Positions 4,627-14,504 of a stretch of DNA of 64,000 bases are shown one piece after another (positions within the stretch are counted from its first letter, which is position 1; the number at the start of each line of letters is the position of its first letter). Source of the stretch: Leptodesmis sichuanensis A121. GTDB taxonomy: Bacteria; Cyanobacteriota; Cyanobacteriia; Leptolyngbyales; Leptolyngbyaceae. The notes under the pieces are model-generated. The model did not search any database, was not told where the DNA came from, and was given only the letters and a program-made list of their open reading frames with translations. Location: the NCBI RefSeq assembly GCF_021379005.1, contig NZ_CP075171.1, positions 744,001 through 808,000 of the forward strand. Direction: 5' to 3'. A program made the translations under genes and the position numbers.

Positions 4627-4827
4627 CTAAGAACTGGCCGAATAACTGGAAGAGCTACTCCCATGATTACTGGTGCGGCTGTTACTTGATGAAGAAATAT
4701 GAATAGTCATCGACTGTGCAACAGTACTACTGGCATCACCTGCTGTGAAAACCTCGCTTCTTGCCTCCGCGATCGCTCGTCCATCTGCCGAAACGACTCG
4801 CTTAAAGATGACTCTGTACTTACTCAT
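4627..4827 (-). CDS. Small Ser-rich protein ending the peptide-export cassette
   Basis: This is a 66-residue protein whose start overlaps the end of the upstream isomerase gene by 8 bp, so translation is probably coupled. The N-terminal half (MSKYRVIFKRVVSADGRAIA) looks folded and basic. The C-terminal half is almost only Ser, with Thr, Asn and His. There is no cysteine and no leader motif of the type found in the four small proteins upstream. I do not recognise the family. By position it belongs to the export cassette, perhaps as a substrate or accessory factor. Confidence 0.65.
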   Translation of the reverse strand: MSKYRVIFKRVVSADGRAIAEARSEVFTAGDASSTVAQSMTIHISSSSNSRTSNHGSSSSSYSASS

Positions 4828-5593
4828 TTTTTTGTTCTCCCAGGTTGTAAGGATTGAGCCAGTAATTCAGTTCTCCATTCAGCCATTCTCGGAACAATCG
4901 CTGGAGAATTTCCTGCCGGGTTTCAGGGGTGAGTTGGGCAGTAATAAATTCTTCGACTCGCAACAGGTGAAAACCTTGCTCCGTTTGCACGGGAGGAATA
5001 ATCTGTCTAGGGTCGGCAGCAAACACGACAGCGGCAATCTCTGGTTTCAAACTCCAGCGATACAATTTTCCTTCATAGCCGCAGTACTGTCGGCGATTAG
5101 GGTCAATATCATACAGGTGGGCGGCTTCAAAAAAGCTAATTTCTGATTCCTCAATTTGATAAAACAATTCAGTGGCCAACTGTTCGTAAGGCACAATGAT
5201 TTGATAGAGCACCACCTGATCAAAGTCCAAGCGATTCTGGACAAAATAGCTTTCAACCTCATTGCCGAACAGGTTCTCTATCAACTTTTGAGTCAACAAG
5301 CGATCGCGAATTCCCGCCTCCCACTCTTCTGCTGTGATCTGTTGATTAGACAACCAGGCCAAGGTATCTGCTGCCCGCTCTAAATGACGCTCTCGACGCT
5401 GGCGATCGGCTTCTGCTTGAATTTCTGGTTGATCCACCTCAATTCCCCTGGCGGCAGCGGCTCGATTCACAATCGCCTGTTGCAGCACCCCTAACCGGAC
5501 CTCCTGGTACTGAAGGTTTTTTTTCAGAAAGCTCACAAGCTCCTCTGGACTGATACTGCCACTGCGATCGCCCACCATCTCAAGTACCTGCAT
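4820..5593 (-). CDS. Parvulin/SurA-like peptidylprolyl isomerase of the peptide-export cassette
   Basis: The protein has 257 residues and no signal peptide or membrane helix, so it should act in the cytoplasm. The N-terminal 120 residues are helical, SurA/trigger-like, with QREERxLE-type charged stretches. Residues about 130-225 fit a parvulin domain (QIIVPYEQLATELF, then GYEGKLYRWSLKPEIAAVVF, then PVQTEQGFHLLRVEE). Isomerases of this type are known beside HlyD and C39 ABC exporters in cyanobacterial bacteriocin-type clusters, where they may keep precursors export-competent (inference). It overlaps the Ser-rich gene downstream and follows the fourth leader-peptide gene. Confidence 0.8.
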   Translation of the reverse strand: MQVLEMVGDRSGSISPEELVSFLKKNLQYQEVRLGVLQQAIVNRAAAARGIEVDQPEIQAEADRQRRERHLERAADTLAWLSNQQITAEEWEAGIRDRLLTQKLIENLFGNEVESYFVQNRLDFDQVVLYQIIVPYEQLATELFYQIEESEISFFEAAHLYDIDPNRRQYCGYEGKLYRWSLKPEIAAVVFAADPRQIIPPVQTEQGFHLLRVEEFITAQLTPETRQEILQRLFREWLNGELNYWLNPYNLGEQKNE

Positions 5594-5740: not shown

Positions 5741-6049
5741 TTAAATGGTTGTACCGAAATATAAAGACTTGCTTGAAACCCTAGAAGAGGAATAACCTGT
5801 GCTATCCGTTGAAATGGCACTGGCTTTTGCGGAAGCAGAAGTGAAGTCAGTATAGGGGGTTATGGGGCGAATAGTAACTGTAGTTTTGGTGGCTGTTACA
5901 GTACTGTCTCCGAGGGCAAGTCCTGCGGCTGTGGCATAACCAAATCCTTGCCCTGCGTAGGTGGTAGCTGAAGCATAGGTGTAGCCGCTTCCAAATAATG
6001 CATTTTGCGGTGAAATAGATTCTAGATAATCTAATTCATCTAGTCTCAT
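5741..6049 (-). CDS. Double-glycine-type leader small protein D
   Basis: This 102-residue protein starts with a leader resembling those of its three neighbours: LDELDYLES near the N-terminus, then FGSG as the likely cut site after about residue 22. The remainder is rich in Ser, Thr, Ala, Gly and Tyr, lacks Cys, and contains TATKTTVTIRP, which recurs in protein B. A GAGGG box lies about 8-12 bases before the ATG. It lies downstream of a large RNA hairpin (6085-6142). The expected fate is cleavage by the C39 domain of the HetC-like transporter and secretion; this follows from leader form and context only. Confidence 0.7.
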   Translation of the reverse strand: MRLDELDYLESISPQNALFGSGYTYASATTYAGQGFGYATAAGLALGDSTVTATKTTVTIRPITPYTDFTSASAKASAISTDSTGYSSSRVSSKSLYFGTTI

Positions 6050-6176: not shown

Positions 6177-6491
6177 CTAACGATATGTAGCCGCAGCAGA
6201 GGTGCTAGAGGAATAAGAACCTACCTGATAAGGAGCCCCCAAAGCTAAACCGCCTGCAAGGCCAGCAGCGGCAACCGTTGAAGTAGTAGTGGTGCTGGCA
6301 CCATCAATATAGTAAGGTGCAGCGGCTGCATCAGCTTCAGCAGTGGCACTGGAAGAGAAAGGGGTAAGTTTGACAAAAGAATAGATCTTGGTGGCAAACT
6401 TAATTTTTGCACTGTAGTCGATAGGAGTTGTGAAACCACCACCAACTTCTCCTTGTGCAGCTTCCATGTAGTTCAGATCAGAAATAATCAT
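6177..6491 (-). CDS. Double-glycine-type leader small protein C
   Basis: This is a 104-residue protein with leader ISDLNYMEAAQGEVGGG at its N-terminus, so the predicted cut is after residue 18-19. The core is rich in Ala, Ser, Thr, Gly and Tyr, has no Cys, and ends in a Ser/Ala/Tyr tail. A GGAG box lies 8 bases before the ATG. A TGCCA-N3-TGGCA palindrome sits about 92 bp upstream of the start. It probably is a substrate of the HetC-like peptidase transporter encoded 5 kb upstream in the same direction (inference). Confidence 0.72.
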   Translation of the reverse strand: MIISDLNYMEAAQGEVGGGFTTPIDYSAKIKFATKIYSFVKLTPFSSSATAEADAAAAPYYIDGASTTTTSTVAAAGLAGGLALGAPYQVGSYSSSTSAAATYR

Positions 6492-6737: not shown

Positions 6738-6848
6738 CTGGTTGACTGACAAATCTCCTGAACACCCGCTGCATCACCAGGAAATCAATTTCCTGGCTCA
6801 TCGCCAAAGTCATCTAAAGACGACTAGACAAGAGTTTCAGTCCATTTG
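6738..6848 (+). mobile_element. Truncated copy of the 200-bp hairpin MITE
   Basis: This is about 111 bp of the left half of the element that is complete at 7740-7939 and 61914-62113. It begins with the terminal sequence CTGGTTGACTGACAAA, preceded by a partial duplicate CTGGTTGACTG, and stops after AGTTTCAGTCCATTTG. The right terminal repeat is missing. It lies between small-protein genes B and C. Confidence 0.85.
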
Positions 6849-6864
6849 CATTTCTTCTAGGCTT

Positions 6865-7197
6865 CTAAGGTTTGTCAATTGCAATTACAAAACCTCTTGC
6901 AACCACCATATCTTTGTTCTCAAAGTAATGCACCTTTGTTTTCTCAATTACCTTATCCCCAGAGCCATATACATCAACCCCTGCAAGTGGATTGTCCCCG
7001 CTTGCGATAGCAATTCCACGCCCCTTTCCGATAGAGCCACCATTTCCTAATGGTCTAACTGTGGCAGTTGTTCTGGTCAAGGTGGCGGATGGATCGCCTG
7101 TAGCTATGGCATTAGCTATAACACCTACAAAAACTCCACCTGAAATGGCATAGATATCTAGAATACTTTCCAGGTAATTCAAGTTGTTGATCATCAT
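6865..7197 (-). CDS. Double-glycine-type leader small protein B
   Basis: This 110-residue protein has leader INNLNYLESILDIYAISGG at its N-terminus, so the likely cut is after residue 21. The first two codons are both ATG and either could be the start. The core contains LTRTTATVRP, matching ATKTTVTIRP of protein D, and then a more mixed C-terminus with charged residues. No Cys is present. The truncated MITE begins 16 bp after its stop. It probably is a secreted product of the HetC-like exporter. Confidence 0.7.
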   Translation of the reverse strand: MMINNLNYLESILDIYAISGGVFVGVIANAIATGDPSATLTRTTATVRPLGNGGSIGKGRGIAIASGDNPLAGVDVYGSGDKVIEKTKVHYFENKDMVVARGFVIAIDKP

Positions 7198-7242: not shown

Positions 7243-7575
7243 CTAAACCCCAGGAACTAGCGTAGAAGTTCCAGTGAGAATGAATAAGCCATCGCTAACT
7301 GATACTTCTCTAAAGTCCACGCTGACTAAGGATTGGGTAGTTCCATTAATGGTTTGAGTGCTACTGGAAACGGCAACGCCAGACACCCCGATCGCGGAAA
7401 CAGAAATTCCGGTCGGTACAGTTGGCAGCGTTGTCTGAAACAAGAGTTGAGAACCCAGGTATAAGGCAAGTGCCGTATCCTGAATAGATAGCAGTAAACC
7501 ATCAGAGCCATTGCCACCAGAAAAGACCAGCTTCTGATTGATGATTTCCAGGTGAGACAGATCCTTGATTAGCAT
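7243..7575 (-). CDS. Double-glycine-type leader small protein A
   Basis: The start at 7575 is chosen because it places the leader IKDLSHLEIINQKLVFSGG at the N-terminus, as in the other three. An upstream in-frame ATG at 7695 would add 40 residues with no such pattern. The mature part of about 89 residues has repeated Ser/Val/Gly strands such as VSGVAVSSS and SLVSVDFREVSVSDG, suggesting beta structure, and no Cys. A TGCCA-N3-TGGCA palindrome lies 54 bp upstream. It is the first leader gene after the HetP-like gene, separated from it by the complete MITE. Confidence 0.68.
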   Translation of the reverse strand: MLIKDLSHLEIINQKLVFSGGNGSDGLLLSIQDTALALYLGSQLLFQTTLPTVPTGISVSAIGVSGVAVSSSTQTINGTTQSLVSVDFREVSVSDGLFILTGTSTLVPGV

Positions 7576-7641: not shown

Positions 7642-7739
7642 GTTTTTTGAGTATCGATCAAAACCTTTGACTGCCATTAAATGCCAAGTTGCCACGTTGC
7701 TCCTGATAAGTTGCTGTTATTTTAATTAGAGCAGCGGAC

Positions 7740-7939
7740 CTGATTGACTGACAAAAGTTCCGAAAGGCTCATGTCTCTGTTGTCAACCCGCCCTAAAATA
7801 AATTTTGGGCTAACAGCGCAAGTCCATTCAAATGGACTAAAACTATTGTCCAGTCATCTTTAGATGACTTTGGCGATGAGCCAGGAAATTGATTTCCTGG
7901 TGATGCAGCGGGTGTTCAGGAGATTTGTCAGTCAACCAG
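7740..7939 (-). mobile_element. 200-bp hairpin MITE, complete copy with 9-bp target duplication
   Basis: The ends are CTGATTGACTGACAAAA at 7740 and its near-complement ending CAACCAG at 7939. The element is flanked by exact 9-bp direct repeats GCAGCGGAC at 7731-7739 and 7940-7948, the mark of transposition. Inside are four short hairpins in a row: GCCCTAAAAT/ATTTTGGGC, AGTCCATT/AATGGACT, AGTCATCT/AGATGACT and CCAGGAAAT/ATTTCCTGG. It carries no gene, so a transposase must act in trans. It is inverted relative to the copies at 6738 and 61914. Confidence 0.92.
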
Positions 7940-8056
7940 GCAGCGGACTGGGGTATCTGCCTTGTTCTGCTAAAGCCAGCGGATGACTTCGGGTGCTTGG
8001 ATAGGAGACTTGATGGAGGATAGGGAGGATAGACTGGGGGCCACAATGGCATTATT

Positions 8057-8479
8057 TCAGCCAATTAGCCAGTTCTTTAGCCAGATCAACCGATACCCAC
8101 CGACAACTCGGTGCTGCTCATGGGCAGCTTCAAGATAAGCCAAATCTTGTATTTGATGTAGTGGTTTTTGATGAGGTTTTGAAAAAGCTTCTTGATCAAT
8201 TTCTGGAGAAATTTCTTTTTGTGATTTTTGAATTTTATTTATTTTTTTGACTTCCTTGGGGGACGATCGTGCGTGCATGTTGTCTTTAATCAGGCGGTTG
8301 TAGGTTCGGTAGGGAATGTAGTGAAGTGGATTATATCCAGCAAACCGTAAGATTAAAACACAAGCCCACGAGTACTTACCAGCCAGGATAGCCTCAACGA
8401 CTTGAGCAAACTGATCCGCTTCCATAACTTTATCGACCTTGATACGTGTAGTTTCGGAGTAGGACGTTTGATAGTTCAT
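8057..8479 (-). CDS. HetP-family protein with C-terminal leader-like motif
   Basis: This is a 140-residue protein. Residues about 20-67 carry the conserved HetP signature ([20 protein letters not shown] then [17 protein letters not shown]). HetP proteins control commitment to heterocyst formation in Anabaena, where hetP lies beside hetC; homologues occur in cyanobacteria without heterocysts. The linker is Lys/Glu-rich. Near the C-terminus is [19 protein letters not shown] followed by a 13-residue tail, which matches the leaders of the four small proteins downstream. A GGGAG box precedes the ATG. hlyD ends 58 bp upstream, so one operon is likely. The biochemical role is unknown here. Confidence 0.85.
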
Positions 8480-8537: not shown

Positions 8538-9869
8538 CTATAAATTGGTTTCGCCCTGGAGCTTCTTCAGGGGATCTAGCAGCACATCCGCAATGCGGCG
8601 ACGACGAGTGACGATTTCAGCGACAGCCGTTTGTCCCGGTTTAAATTTGAACGTTTGCCCTTTGGCGTTTACATAGTCTCGGTTTAAAGCCACTTCGACT
8701 CGATAAATCTGTCCCAACTGCTGATCGGGTTTGCTATCGGAAGAGATGGCACTGACTCGACCCGAAACAATCCCGTAATCTTGATAGGGGTAGGCATCCA
8801 GCTTGACATTCACAGGCAGCCCCACTTTGACAAACCCCATTTCGGAACTGGGTAAGCTAGCAGAAATTACCAGGGGTTGGCCTTGAGGGGCAATTTCAGC
8901 GATCGTTTGCCCCGGTTGAGTATAGACACCACTGCGACGCACATTGAGCGCGAGGATCACGCCGTTCGCGGGTGCCCGCAGGAACCGCTGCCTCAGCTTA
9001 GCTTTGGTCTCCTCCAGCAGGATTTGAGTTTCTTTCACTTTTGCTTGCAGTTCAGTCAGTTTTACGGTGAGTTGCTGAATTTGCTGTTGAGCTTCTAATT
9101 GGCTTTGGCGAGCTTCCTCCTGCTTTTGAGCTAACTCAATTTGTAATCGACTAGCCTCAGCTTGAGTTTGTTGCAAAGCATTTTGTCGTTCTGTAATGCT
9201 GCGCTGGCGATCGCGCAATTGCTGTTCTGCTGCAAATAAGTTTTCCTGAGAAATAGCACCTTGTTCGGTCAGGGGTTTTAACCGTTGCAAGCGTTCCTCC
9301 TGAGCACGGGCATCGGTTTGAAATTGCGAGAGCAAATCCTGATTATTCACCGCATTGTTTTTAGATTGAGCGATCGTGGCTTCCTGCATATTGATAGTTG
9401 TTTTCGCGATCGCGGCACGGGTTTCCGCCTGTAATTGGGTTTTATCCAGCAGAGATTGAGTCTGTAACAATTCCATTTGTGAGGTTTGCAACAGGTGCTC
9501 CAGTCGCTCCACATCTTTCCGGGCCAGTTCCGTATCCAACTCGACTAACACCTGTCCGGCTGCTACAGTTTGCCCCTCTTGCACCGCAATGCGAACCACC
9601 TTGCCAGAATCGACAGCATGAACCTGGAAAACTTCCCCTTTGGGGATCAACTTCCCTCTGGCTTGAGCCACTTCATCTGTATGTCCAATCCAGGCCCACG
9701 TTGCGAACAGTAAGCCAAACACAGTTCCCCCCAGCATGAATCGGATGGGCAGATTAGAAGGAGGCTGATCTAGAACAGTTTGCAGGGGTAACGACCATTG
9801 GGGAGATGCTGTAGAAGAGAGAGATTTTGTCTGTTCCTCTTGCAGGGGGGGTTTGGGCGTAAAAACCAT
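8538..9869 (-). CDS. HlyD-family membrane fusion protein of the peptide exporter
   Basis: This 443-residue adaptor subunit links an inner-membrane ABC exporter to the envelope. There is one membrane helix at about residues 43-62 ([18 protein letters not shown]), a biotinyl-lipoyl-like hairpin domain ([24 protein letters not shown]), a long Gln/Glu/Leu-rich coiled coil at about 115-290, and a second lipoyl half ([18 protein letters not shown]), followed by the beta-barrel part. It is the natural partner of the C39 ABC transporter at 11280-14504, from which an IS630 element now separates it by about 1.4 kb. Confidence 0.9.
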
Positions 9870-9905: not shown

Positions 9906-11031
9906 TTGCCTCGGCAATAAAATAGAATGCATTCTACAACGCAGCATAAGCAATCAATGGATGCTTGAAATAATTTCTAATCCGAGCAGGTAGCTTCTGT
10001 AACTTCCGCAATTGAGATAACACTCGCCCTTTCAACTGCTTCAAATTACGACTCGGTGGTTTGTCATGCACGCCCTGCTTCACATCACCATTGAAGTATT
10101 CAGTTGGATTCAATTCTGGCGAATAGGAGGGTAAGTAAAATAACTCAATCTGCTCGAGGTGTTCTCGTAACCACTGTTTCACGCTCTGTTGCCGATGCAC
10201 GGGATGCCGGTCCACAATCCAAAATAGTTTCCGCTGGCGCTTGGCGATCAACCGCTGGCAAAATCGGATGAACAGTTCTGCTGCCAACGTGCAAGTGTAG
10301 AGCATAAACTGGACTCCTCCCTGGTTACTCACACTGGCAATGTAATTGACGCGCTCTCGGTTGCGCTCACTGGGACGAATCTCAGGAGACGTGCCCAGCA
10401 AGGCATACCCTCGTCCGCCATACTCAGTCGAGGACACGCCTGATTCATCCCCCCAAGCAATCTCTGCTCCTTCGGTTTTGGCCCGTTGCTCAATCTCCGG
10501 ATACTCGTGTTCCAACCACCGTTGTACCGTCTTTGGGTCTTGCTCGTAGGCTCGCTCTACGGGTTTCTTGGGCGTGTACCCCCAGCGTTTCAAATACTCT
10601 CCCACCGTGCGAATTGGCATTTTCACCTGACACACTTGCTCCATTAATGCCTGCACCGCTCGTCTTGTCCACAGGGCACTATCAATCTGGTAATCTTCCG
10701 GAAAATGATCTTGCATCGCCGTTTGCACGGCCTCTTCCTGCCAGCGCTCCAAGGTTCGCCCCTCCCCCACTTGTCGTCCCCGCTCTAACTGATAGAGAGC
10801 ATCCTCTCCATAATGTTCATACTCCCACCACCATTCCCATACCGTGTTGCGGTGAACGCCCAAATACTCACTAATGTCTTTAACCCGTTTGCCCTGCTCT
10901 CGGAGGCGAATCGCTTGCTGCCGCAGGTAGTTTTGGGTTTCTATCGAGAGGTGCCTGGCATCTGGTTTATCCATCACAAACCTCCTTGTGCCTGTATATT
11001 CATTATGTCTTGTGTTTAGTTGCCGGAGCAA
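9906..11031 (-). mobile_element. IS630-family insertion sequence
   Basis: The ends are TTGCCTCGGCAATAAA and the inverse of TTGCTCCGGCAACTAAA, flanked on both sides by TA (9904-9905 and 11032-11033), the usual IS630 target duplication. The length of 1126 bp fits the family. It contains one intact transposase gene. It lies between hlyD and the HetC-like transporter gene, both leftward. Confidence 0.85.
9934..10974 (-). CDS. IS630-family transposase
   Basis: The protein has about 346 residues when begun at the ATG at 10974 (MDKPDARHL); an upstream in-frame start at 11031 overlaps the terminal repeat and is unlikely. An N-terminal helix-turn-helix (VKDISEYLGVHRNTVWEWW) is followed by a winged part with RTVGEYLKRWGYTPKKP. 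The DDE catalytic residues are visible in WGDESGV, WIVDRHPVH and SPELNPTEYFN. The frame is intact, so the element may still be active. Confidence 0.93.
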   Translation of the reverse strand: MDKPDARHLSIETQNYLRQQAIRLREQGKRVKDISEYLGVHRNTVWEWWWEYEHYGEDALYQLERGRQVGEGRTLERWQEEAVQTAMQDHFPEDYQIDSALWTRRAVQALMEQVCQVKMPIRTVGEYLKRWGYTPKKPVERAYEQDPKTVQRWLEHEYPEIEQRAKTEGAEIAWGDESGVSSTEYGGRGYALLGTSPEIRPSERNRERVNYIASVSNQGGVQFMLYTCTLAAELFIRFCQRLIAKRQRKLFWIVDRHPVHRQQSVKQWLREHLEQIELFYLPSYSPELNPTEYFNGDVKQGVHDKPPSRNLKQLKGRVLSQLRKLQKLPARIRNYFKHPLIAYAAL

Positions 11032-11279: not shown

Positions 11280-14200
11280 CTATAGATTCAGTTGCTGTTG
11301 TGCCAGGTGGTAGTACAGTCCTCGCTCTGCAATCAGTTCTACATGAGTGCCTTGTTCAACTAACACGCCCCGATCGAGCACCAGAATCCGATCCGCGTGC
11401 TGTACGGTAGACAAACGATGAGCAATGATGAAGGTAGTACGATCGCGGCTGATGCGGGCTAAGTTCTGTTGAAAGCGCCGTTCAGATTCTGTATCGAGAG
11501 AACTGGTGGCTTCATCCAGCAACAGAATCACAGGATTTCCCAATAGAGCACGGGCGATCGCAATGCGTTGTCGCTGTCCACCGGATAAATTGGCACCGCG
11601 TTCACCCACCTTAGTGTTGTATCCCAGCGGCAGATCTTGAATGAAGCCATGCGCTTCCGCCAGCTTGGACACCTGCACTACATCTTCCAACGTAAACTCT
11701 GGACGGAACAGGGTGATGTTTTCCAGAATCGTGCCGGAGAACAAAAAGCACTCTTGCGGCACCACACCCAATTGCGATCGCAATGAGGGCGGGGAAACAT
11801 GACGAATATCGTGGCCATCAATCCAGATGCGGCCAGTGGTGGGATGATACAGCCCCTGCAGCAGTTTGATGAAGGTACTTTTTCCCGATCCACTACGTCC
11901 GACAATGGCGATCGTTTGACCGGGCTGCACCTCTAGAGAAATGTTTTGCAGAACATTTTTCTCAGTGTCCTGATAGCGGAAGGTAATATCCTCAAACCGC
12001 ACCTCTCCCTTCAAGGGGGGCAGTACCAGCATGGGATTCCGAGGAGACTCTTCCGGTGGAGTCGAGAATACATCATTCAGCCGTTCTACGGAAACCAGCA
12101 CTTCCTGACATTCATCCCACAATCCCACTAAGGCCAGAATCGGGCCAGTGACATTACCAATCAGCATATTGAAGGCAACAAATTGGCCGATCGTCAGCTG
12201 ATCTTGAATCACTAACCTGGCTCCAAACCACAGGAGCAGTGTACTCCCCAGGGTATTGATCAGGCCGCTGGTCGTTTGCAGACCCAAGGCAAACTTTTGT
12301 CCCCGGAACCGCTCGTTCAGCATCCGGGTAAAGCGATCTTCCCATAACCAGCGCATCTCATACTCAGCAGCAGTTGCCTTTACAGTTGCAACGCCGCTGA
12401 TCATCTCGACCAGCGAGGAATTCTGAGCAGCCGCCTCTTTGAAAATGGCACGAGAAATACGACGCAAAAAGGGGCTGGCAGCAACCGTCAGGATAATGAT
12501 CGGCGGTAAAAGGGCCAACACCAGCAGCGTCAGTTGCCAGTTGTAATACGCCATCAAGCCAATATAGACCACTGCTGTTAGCGCATTTAACCAGGCCGTG
12601 ACAGCCTGACGAGTCAAAAACAATTGAATTTTTTGATTCTCTTGTACCCGTGTGATGATGTCACCCACATGACGTGATTCAAAGAATTGCAAGGGTAGCT
12701 TTAAGGTGTGGTTAATGAAAGCGCTAATAAAACTGAGATCCAGCCGATTGGAGAAATAGTCCAGCAAATACTGGCGTACAGCCGTTAGCCCAATCTGCCA
12801 AACACTGAATAGCACTAACCCAATCACAAACACATTTAAAACGGCCATGCTTTTTTGGACAATCACCCGATCGAGAATGATCTGGGTAAACAGGGGGGTA
12901 ACTAGACCAAAAACCTGCAGCAGCAAGGAAGCCAGAACAATTTGCAGAAGCACAGAATGGTAAGGCAGCACCGCAGACCAAAACCGTCCCAGAGAAAGTT
13001 TCTCGCTTTCTATCGATTGAAACCGTTCACTCGGCTCCAGTAACAGGGCATATCCTGTCCAATTCGCCTGAAACTCTTCTAACGTCAGTGATTGTTTGCC
13101 AACTGCCGGATCCGCAATCAAAATTCGATGACGACGAGTGCGATATACCACCACATAATGATCGCCCTGCCAGTGAGCAATCCAGGGATTATCCAGCTCT
13201 GCTAACCGTCCTAAACTGGCTCGCACAGGACGGGTTTGAAATCCTACTCGTTCAGCCGCTCCAGCTAAGTTTTTGAGAGAAGCACCCGATCGCCCTACGT
13301 TCGCCAAATTTCGCAAGGTATTGATGCTCAAGCGTTTACCCCAATACTGGCTGATCATGGCTAGACAGGCTACACCACAGTCGGAAGTGCTCTGCTGTTC
13401 GATAAAGGGATAGGACGGCCAGAAACGCCTGCGCGATCGCTGCCGCGTCGGAGCCGGAAACACGACCTCTGGTTGTTCAGGAATCAGCTCTGGCGATCGT
13501 TCTGCCTCTGCTACCGCAGCAACAGGGTGAATAGCAGGAATGACCTTTGTAGCAGCAGAAATAGAACGGGGGGTGAACTGTGAGATGACGAGAGGCGATG
13601 GAGAACTGCCTGTATTGCCCCGGTTTTTCACTCCTGTTGCATGGGAAGTTGCATCTGATACACCGCTAATGACAGCCTTCTGACTCAGGATGGGAGCAAT
13701 TGCAACTGCGGCTTGCCAGTGTTCTTCGGGTAGCTTATAAAGCGTTAGTTCTGTTTCAGCCAGCCAGTCAGAGGGCACCGGATCAGGATACCCCCAGGAA
13801 TCTCCGATCTGAGGAACCTGTGCCGTATTCTCTGGACTAGCAATATGCCCATACCGCAACCAGCAATGGCTTCCCTGGGAAAGGTGAGAATCAGCTAACC
13901 GTTCTCCTGCGGCAATTCGATCTTCTGCTAGCAGGGGTAACAAATGTTGGAGTTGATGGCTGGGTAGCGATCGCAACAGGGTGGAGGTTTTGAAAAAGAT
14001 GAGATGCTCCCGTCGTCGGGTCTGCTGCTCTAAAAAATCCCGTAGATCGGGTAATTGTTGCAACCAGGGCTGCACTTTGTCGTGACTGAGGCGGGCAATT
14101 TGAGTTGGGGAGGCCGCGATCGCCTGATAGGGCAGCGGTGTGCTAGAAAACAACTGGTCTGCACCAAAGATGTCACCAACCTCTAAACTCTTGACCGAAA

Positions 14201-14504
14201 CCAGTCGTTGCCGCTGGGCATCAAACGCCAGTAAGCGCACCCGCCCCTGACAAACGATCAACAAATCCGTTGCATCAGCCCTGTTCTGTTCACCAGGAGC
14301 AAAATCAATGCTGTGACTATTGGTATGTTGGATTAAGATTAACTGGCCCAAGTCAAGCTGGAGTAACTCAAACTCCCGGGAAAAATGTACCAGTAACTCT
14401 GGCTCCACCTGAGACAGGGGAAGTTGCTTTAAAAGTTCGGGGATAGCGGCTAGATTTTCCTCTCGAAGTCGGGAAAGCGAATCGGTCTGCACACCTAAAT
14501 TCAT
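11280..14504 (-). CDS. HetC-like peptidase-containing ABC transporter (cNMP-binding, C39 peptidase, ABC)
   Basis: This 1074-residue exporter cuts leader peptides and moves the cores across the inner membrane. Residues about 35-260 look like one or two cyclic-nucleotide-binding-type folds (FAPGEQNRADATDLLIVCQG, VGDIFGADQLFSS). The C39 peptidase spans about 365-490 with the catalytic Cys in QQSTSDCGVACLAM, His in GDHYVVVY and Asp in IADPAVG. The membrane domain covers about 505-790. The ATPase has Walker A VGRSGSGKST, signature LSGGQRQRIAIARA, Walker B VILLLDEATSSLD and the switch His in IIAHRLSTV, so all catalytic parts are present. This order is that of HetC, needed early in heterocyst differentiation, and of cyanobacterial bacteriocin exporters. 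Substrates are probably the leader proteins 3-8 kb downstream. Confidence 0.92.
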   Translation of the reverse strand: MNLGVQTDSLSRLREENLAAIPELLKQLPLSQVEPELLVHFSREFELLQLDLGQLILIQHTNSHSIDFAPGEQNRADATDLLIVCQGRVRLLAFDAQRQRLVSVKSLEVGDIFGADQLFSSTPLPYQAIAASPTQIARLSHDKVQPWLQQLPDLRDFLEQQTRRREHLIFFKTSTLLRSLPSHQLQHLLPLLAEDRIAAGERLADSHLSQGSHCWLRYGHIASPENTAQVPQIGDSWGYPDPVPSDWLAETELTLYKLPEEHWQAAVAIAPILSQKAVISGVSDATSHATGVKNRGNTGSSPSPLVISQFTPRSISAATKVIPAIHPVAAVAEAERSPELIPEQPEVVFPAPTRQRSRRRFWPSYPFIEQQSTSDCGVACLAMISQYWGKRLSINTLRNLANVGRSGASLKNLAGAAERVGFQTRPVRASLGRLAELDNPWIAHWQGDHYVVVYRTRRHRILIADPAVGKQSLTLEEFQANWTGYALLLEPSERFQSIESEKLSLGRFWSAVLPYHSVLLQIVLASLLLQVFGLVTPLFTQIILDRVIVQKSMAVLNVFVIGLVLFSVWQIGLTAVRQYLLDYFSNRLDLSFISAFINHTLKLPLQFFESRHVGDIITRVQENQKIQLFLTRQAVTAWLNALTAVVYIGLMAYYNWQLTLLVLALLPPIIILTVAASPFLRRISRAIFKEAAAQNSSLVEMISGVATVKATAAEYEMRWLWEDRFTRMLNERFRGQKFALGLQTTSGLINTLGSTLLLWFGARLVIQDQLTIGQFVAFNMLIGNVTGPILALVGLWDECQEVLVSVERLNDVFSTPPEESPRNPMLVLPPLKGEVRFEDITFRYQDTEKNVLQNISLEVQPGQTIAIVGRSGSGKSTFIKLLQGLYHPTTGRIWIDGHDIRHVSPPSLRSQLGVVPQECFLFSGTILENITLFRPEFTLEDVVQVSKLAEAHGFIQDLPLGYNTKVGERGANLSGGQRQRIAIARALLGNPVILLLDEATSSLDTESERRFQQNLARISRDRTTFIIAHRLSTVQHADRILVLDRGVLVEQGTHVELIAERGLYYHLAQQQLNL

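Follow-up and report, generated by a model that had tools for sequence, protein, structure and literature searches.

A C-terminal double-glycine leader-like motif in cyanobacterial HetP proteins accompanies the HetC peptidase-exporter

In the window, which is the whole 64,000-nucleotide stretch of Leptodesmis sichuanensis A121 DNA that was analysed, a HetP-like protein encoded beside a C39 exporter carries near its C-terminus a motif resembling the double-glycine leaders of exported peptides. Across cyanobacteria this motif is kept where class-1 HetC is present and mostly lost where it is not, and comparison of the sequences makes HetP the best candidate for HetC's target. HetP helps cyanobacteria commit to nitrogen-fixing cells (heterocysts). 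The double-glycine leaders known to us are N-terminal.

The C39 exporter cluster is on the minus strand and consists of a hetC-like gene, an IS630-type transposase gene, hlyD, hetP, four small leader genes and a PpiC-type rotamase gene, with the following features.

8057..8479, minus strand: hetP-like gene, 140 aa (NCBIfam NF037966 HetP family, E 3.9e-34)
8279..8449, minus strand: HetP domain, residues 11-67 (NF037966 match; AlphaFold2 helical blocks)
8096..8152, minus strand: C-terminal double-glycine leader-like motif, residues 110-128 (leader HMM, 10.4 bits)
8060..8095, minus strand: 12-residue tail after the GG of HetP (translation)
11280..14504, minus strand: hetC homologue with cNMP-binding, C39 peptidase and ABC exporter regions (Pfam)
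13026..13412, minus strand: C39 peptidase domain of the hetC homologue, C376/H449/D465 (PF03412, E 5.2e-43)
8538..9869, minus strand: HlyD-type membrane fusion protein (TIGR01843, above cut-off)
7243..7575, minus strand: small protein, N-terminal leader MLIKDLSHLEIINQKLVFSGG (sequence)
6865..7197, minus strand: small protein, N-terminal leader MMINNLNYLESILDIYAISGG (sequence)
6177..6491, minus strand: small protein, N-terminal leader MIISDLNYMEAAQGEVGGG (sequence)
5741..6049, minus strand: small protein, N-terminal leader MRLDELDYLESISPQNALFGS (sequence)
4820..5593, minus strand: PpiC/SurA-type rotamase, related to the peptide-maturation protein TIGR04500 (family models)

The hetC homologue is the genome's top match to a Nostocaceae HetC (54% identity) and has the HetC-type architecture of cNMP-binding, C39, transmembrane and ATPase domains, with the C39 triad C376/H449/D465 intact. 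In the window hlyD adjoins hetP, and the order hetC-hlyD-hetP is found there as well as in loci L012, L013, L018, L023 and L046, so HetP is encoded beside a C39 exporter. Genes for PpiC/SurA-type rotamases are also present in other HetC clusters. An IS630-type (DDE_3) transposase gene at 9934-11031 sits between hetC and hlyD-hetP; in FACHB-63 (L012), the closest relative, hetC and hlyD-hetP are contiguous. Between hetP and the first small gene, at 7739-7940, is a 202-bp element that has 26-bp terminal inverted repeats; 40 copies of it, 95-100% identical, were obtained from a search of the genome. With a 114-bp inverted partial copy of this element at 6738-6851, inverted arms flank two of the small leader genes. 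The small protein encoded after PpiC, at 4627-4827, has a serine-rich C-terminus and gave no match in the family search.

The HetP open-reading frame scored 116.1 bits against NF037966, for which the curated cut-off is 45, and is the sole HetP match in its own genome. AlphaFold2 placed residues 21-70 in helical blocks at pLDDT 87-95, the prediction being confident for this N-terminal helical domain only, with the linker, motif and tail all of low confidence; a Foldseek search of the HetP fold against the PDB gave no match with E below 5. The motif is leader-like and ends in GG, as expected of a double-glycine substrate, and is found after the HetP domain rather than at the N-terminus of a short precursor. 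A leader profile was built from 41 N-terminal leaders of small ORFs in the surveyed loci, with HetP excluded, and searched across the surveyed hetC/hetP loci. The window HetP reached 10.4 bits at residues 110-128, a score reached by 3 of 20,000 shuffles of its sequence, confirming the leader-like motif that the earlier note had described at the HetP C-terminus. The N-terminal leaders it had described on the four small proteins are likewise present in all four (MLIKDLSHLE..SGG, MMINNLNYLE..SGG, MIISDLNYME..GGG and MRLDELDYLE..GSG), while the tail, which it had put at 13 residues, is one residue shorter in translation.

With the same profile, 52% of 184 different HetP C-termini scored at least 4 bits, compared to 0.05% of shuffles. 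Among the 31,775 other ORFs in the loci, 73 reached 7 bits or more; 71 matches were N-terminal in short ORFs, and the other two were one 37-residue ORF and one weak match in a 30-residue ORF. This indicates that, among the sequences searched, HetP is the sole family with a C-terminal leader. An alignment of 38 HetPs showed the start Met, I110, D112, L113, Y115, E117, G127 and G128 as near-invariant outside the HetP domain; the motif accounts for almost all such positions. Neither HetP nor the four small proteins matched the NHLP or Nif11 precursor models (NCBIfam, E<=1). No DNA similarity above chance was found between the hetP motif and the four small-protein leaders, and the likeness is at the protein level only.

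Class-1 HetC was defined by whole-gene similarity and, where read, has a Cys-to-Walker-B-Glu spacing of 623, as in PCC 7120 (C347/E970); its gene immediately precedes hetP or hlyD-hetP. A first survey covered HetP copies across the phylum, with motifs called by regular expression and five (L005, L187, L008, L179 and L189) assigned by eye. GG was present in 41 of 44 HetPs from genomes with class-1 HetC, the remainder being two GS and one GR, and in 6 of 29 from genomes without it. In a replicate in named genomes, core and GG occurred together in 41 of 43 HetPs with HetC upstream (exceptions L072, no motif, and L075, GA), compared to 3 of 23 where HetC was absent genome-wide; Fisher's test gave 9e-12 with the kinship of species uncorrected, and such P values overstate the association because the species are related. 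Whole-genome search found no class-1 HetC in the 23 genomes without an upstream HetC, and four matches there just past threshold, at 41-42% identity, resembled class-2 exporters. An extra 12 kb upstream and whole-genome searches ruled out that, in some Nostocaceae, hetC simply lay beyond the stretch examined.

The hetC-less rows form several groups on the HetP tree and, by our own reading of the tree and of names, give roughly seven to nine lineage contrasts, most in one direction. Among one set of relatives, the reading is DLAYLEVVGKKKTEIRGG in Tolypothrix and Scytonema, which have HetC, and RSG, RGS or DRPLLE in Brasilonema, HT-58-2 and S. tolypothrichoides, which lack it. The HetP domain is intact despite HetC loss, and several of the top NF037966 scores belong to hetC-less genomes. 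Paralogues of HetP away from hetC almost always have a short C-terminus that lacks the motif; L136, L159 and L206 depart from this in part or in full, and L159 has its own HetC. The motif is absent although HetC is adjacent in L199, L180, L208 and L072, and GG is kept in the hetC-less lineages G058/L089 (with a hetC fragment), G094, G192, G307, G356, L045 and L051. DLAYLEV is retained in a large hetC-less clade, which suggests that this segment may also serve another role. After the GG, the tail runs to 12 residues in the window HetP and to about 36 in most hetC-bearing Nostocales; by script count, all 41 HetPs of hetC-bearing named-genome loci have an aromatic residue at most 10 residues after GG, which includes Trp in 39.

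About 20 Nostocaceae genomes that form a clade (G050, G078, G098, G100, G104, G254, G256, G328, G350, G407 and others) lack class-1 HetC, in contrast to PCC 7120, where HetC is essential for heterocysts. One contig filed as a Candidatus Gracilibacteria MAG (L032) holds a cyanobacterial-type hetC-hetP pair and is probably mis-binned.

Erosion of the motif was also seen where HetC persists with a defective peptidase. When 116 C39 domains were aligned, two were without the catalytic cysteine and three were incomplete. Both cysteine-less domains belong to genus g83, in which a third genome likewise has Cys to Ser, and the g83 HetPs beside a Cys-less HetC end at RGSGLDN or RGGGLDN, followed by the stop, or stop before GG. 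The catalytic Cys is replaced with Ser in the HetCs of L175, L291 and L305, and L175 also has His to Asp. Class-1 HetC was not found in two further g83 genomes, one of them G307, and its absence from Nodularia spumigena CCY9414 is published. In the PCC 7120-like genus, HetC is present in 13 of 13 genomes, every HetP read there keeps GG and a long tail, and C-H-D is the C39 triad wherever it was checked. Three genomes of this genus (loci L307, L309 and L311) have a second class-1 HetC with an intact triad, HetP being absent from the stretch examined.

Ordinary N-terminal leader proteins are also held by 18 of 23 non-heterocystous hetC loci. In 31 heterocystous hetC loci the leader profile found no convincing leader gene beside hetC other than HetP, two hits classed as other genes being HetP itself; this leaves HetP as the one convincing carrier of the motif seen beside hetC in heterocyst formers. 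Many Nostocaceae have a class-2 C39 exporter, accompanied by HlyD and PpiC, either 2-5 kb downstream of hetP or next to a HetP paralogue (L255-L263, L266, L267 and L269), indicating that the neighbourhood of HetP and C39 exporters is wider than the hetC-hetP pair.

These comparisons bear on the two explanations offered in the earlier note, namely that the C39 transporter recognises or clips HetP, or that a leader gene was fused to hetP. The first is well supported at the comparative level, with a family-wide motif that tracks HetC and decays with loss of HetC or of its catalytic cysteine. The second is unsupported as a recent or strain-specific event: the C-termini of HetP homologues carry the motif in many cyanobacterial families, so that it is neither confined to this strain nor lacking from its homologues, and a recent origin from one of the neighbouring leader genes, by fusion or duplication, is rejected, the DNA likeness to those leaders being at chance level. 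An ancient fusion of a leader gene to hetP may have occurred.

We consider it probable that HetP is a HetC substrate. HetP would consist of a folded N-terminal helical domain and a disordered linker, followed near the C-terminus by a copy of the double-glycine leader type found on the small proteins that exporters of the same family secrete. From the motif, its profile-level identity with leaders, the C39 triad, the gene linkage and the co-loss, we infer docking, cutting and an effect of cutting as follows. The DLxYLE segment of the motif peptide, DLAYLEVVGKQKTEIRGG, a proposed binder of the HetC N-terminal domain, would dock onto the C39 domain; the bond after GG would then be cut, splitting the HetP domain, which would remain in the cell, from the Trp-containing tail, which would be freed. 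In heterocyst formers, cutting would most likely turn HetP into its active form, and the tail could possibly also be exported as a signal. The truncated tails of several hetC-less lineages fit a relaxed need for processing.

Published genetics can be set beside this proposal. HetC was earlier recognised as a probable peptidase-exporter required in heterocyst formation, and its cysteine and histidine are essential (C347/H420 required in vivo), its substrate being called unknown in 2024 (PMC10986499). Overexpressed HetP-GFP rescues a deletion of the HetC peptidase (PMC4133259), which suggests that the essential output of HetC passes through HetP and not through an exported peptide. Fusions of HetC and of HetP are both seen near the heterocyst poles, and HetP with GFP at its C-terminus is cytoplasmic and polar whether the HetC peptidase is present or deleted (PMC4133259), which speaks against the tail being fully removed or exported in those constructs. 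As a tentative extension, the HetC cut of HetP could be the proteolytic switch of heterocyst commitment, with loss of the tail freeing or activating HetP and HetC being dispensed with once the HetP site or tail is gone.

The rescue also bears on the proposal, made in the accessible text of Wang, Fewer and Sivonen 2011 (PMC3140520) and again in that of a 2015 study (PMC4558948), that HetP is a putative bacteriocin precursor, in which case the motif would release and export the tail peptide and the HetP domain would be an oversized leader. The HetP tails of non-heterocystous species, which are short and rich in aromatics, and the place of HetP in an exporter operon alongside other leader proteins are consistent with such a precursor. 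We regard it as rather unlikely, however, because after the rescue by HetP overexpression the essential output in PCC 7120 seems to be HetP itself, and because conservation is far higher in the HetP domain than in the tail. The localization results could instead reflect docking without cutting, the HetP leader mimic binding the HetC C39 domain uncleaved as a regulator or adaptor: HetP-GFP is polar with its C-terminal GFP intact and is unaltered in the HetC peptidase deletion strain, and the core outlasts GG in hetC-less species. Docking alone is unlikely, given that GG is kept in nearly all lineages with hetC and lost from most without it, that GG or the tail is eroded in HetPs beside a Cys-less HetC, and that HetC needs its catalytic C347/H420 in vivo (PMC10986499). 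Binding or cutting of the motif by another protein appears improbable, although an M16 peptidase was tentatively credited in the accessible 2011 text (PMC3140520) and many Nostocaceae encode a second C39 exporter, of class 2 and with HlyD and PpiC, close to hetP or a paralogue; across the C39 exporters surveyed, the motif tracks the presence and catalytic state of class-1 HetC and is lost in hetC-less genomes still holding class-2 exporters. Chance likeness, or an export-unrelated motif that happens to end in GG, might be suspected of so short a pattern but is close to excluded by the shuffle tests, the family-wide conservation and the co-loss with HetC.

The bare motif was already known, as KIXDLXYLEX10GG in HetP-type proteins was published in 2011 in the accessible text of PMC3140520 and repeated in that of the 2015 study, which concerns branching cyanobacteria (Subsection V; PMC4558948). 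In the accessible text of these two papers it is linked neither with the missing substrate of HetC nor with paralogues or the loss of HetC; it was not found joined to HetC in other literature located, and the 2014 and 2024 HetC papers leave it unused. New are the co-occurrence of motif and HetC, the erosion beside a Cys-less HetC, the motif-less paralogues and the standing of HetP as sole candidate beside hetC. The observation is real and partly known, cleavage is the step that we infer, and an open question becomes testable, the HetC substrate question now having a single testable candidate and a predicted cut site. It joins bacteriocin mining (2011) with heterocyst genetics (2014-2024), which in the texts found do not cite one another on the motif, and a natural experiment is offered by the many lineages that have lost HetC, or the catalytic cysteine in it, and whose HetP site has decayed. 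If HetC does cut HetP, a bacteriocin export enzyme would have been reused as a developmental processing protease acting on a C-terminal, not an N-terminal, leader.

Among known systems, the HetP-type motif in the accessible text of Wang et al. 2011 (PMC3140520) is the same motif in the same family, beside C39 exporter clusters as here. The window shares with HetC (Alr2817) and HetP (Alr2818) of Nostoc/Anabaena PCC 7120 the exporter architecture (cNMP, C39, ABC) and the HetP family, and the catalytic Cys-His spacing of 73 in the window HetC equals that of C347/H420. It differs in that HlyD, PpiC and ordinary leader proteins are encoded beside hetC, whereas the PCC 7120 papers describe neither a membrane fusion protein nor a leader gene at that place. 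PteB and EbfG1-4 of Synechococcus elongatus likewise pair a cyanobacterial C39 exporter with GG-motif proteins, and efficient secretion of the small EbfG proteins requires the PteB exporter cysteine (PMC4997328). The EbfG motifs, however, are N-terminal in short secreted proteins, whereas that of HetP is C-terminal in a regulator.
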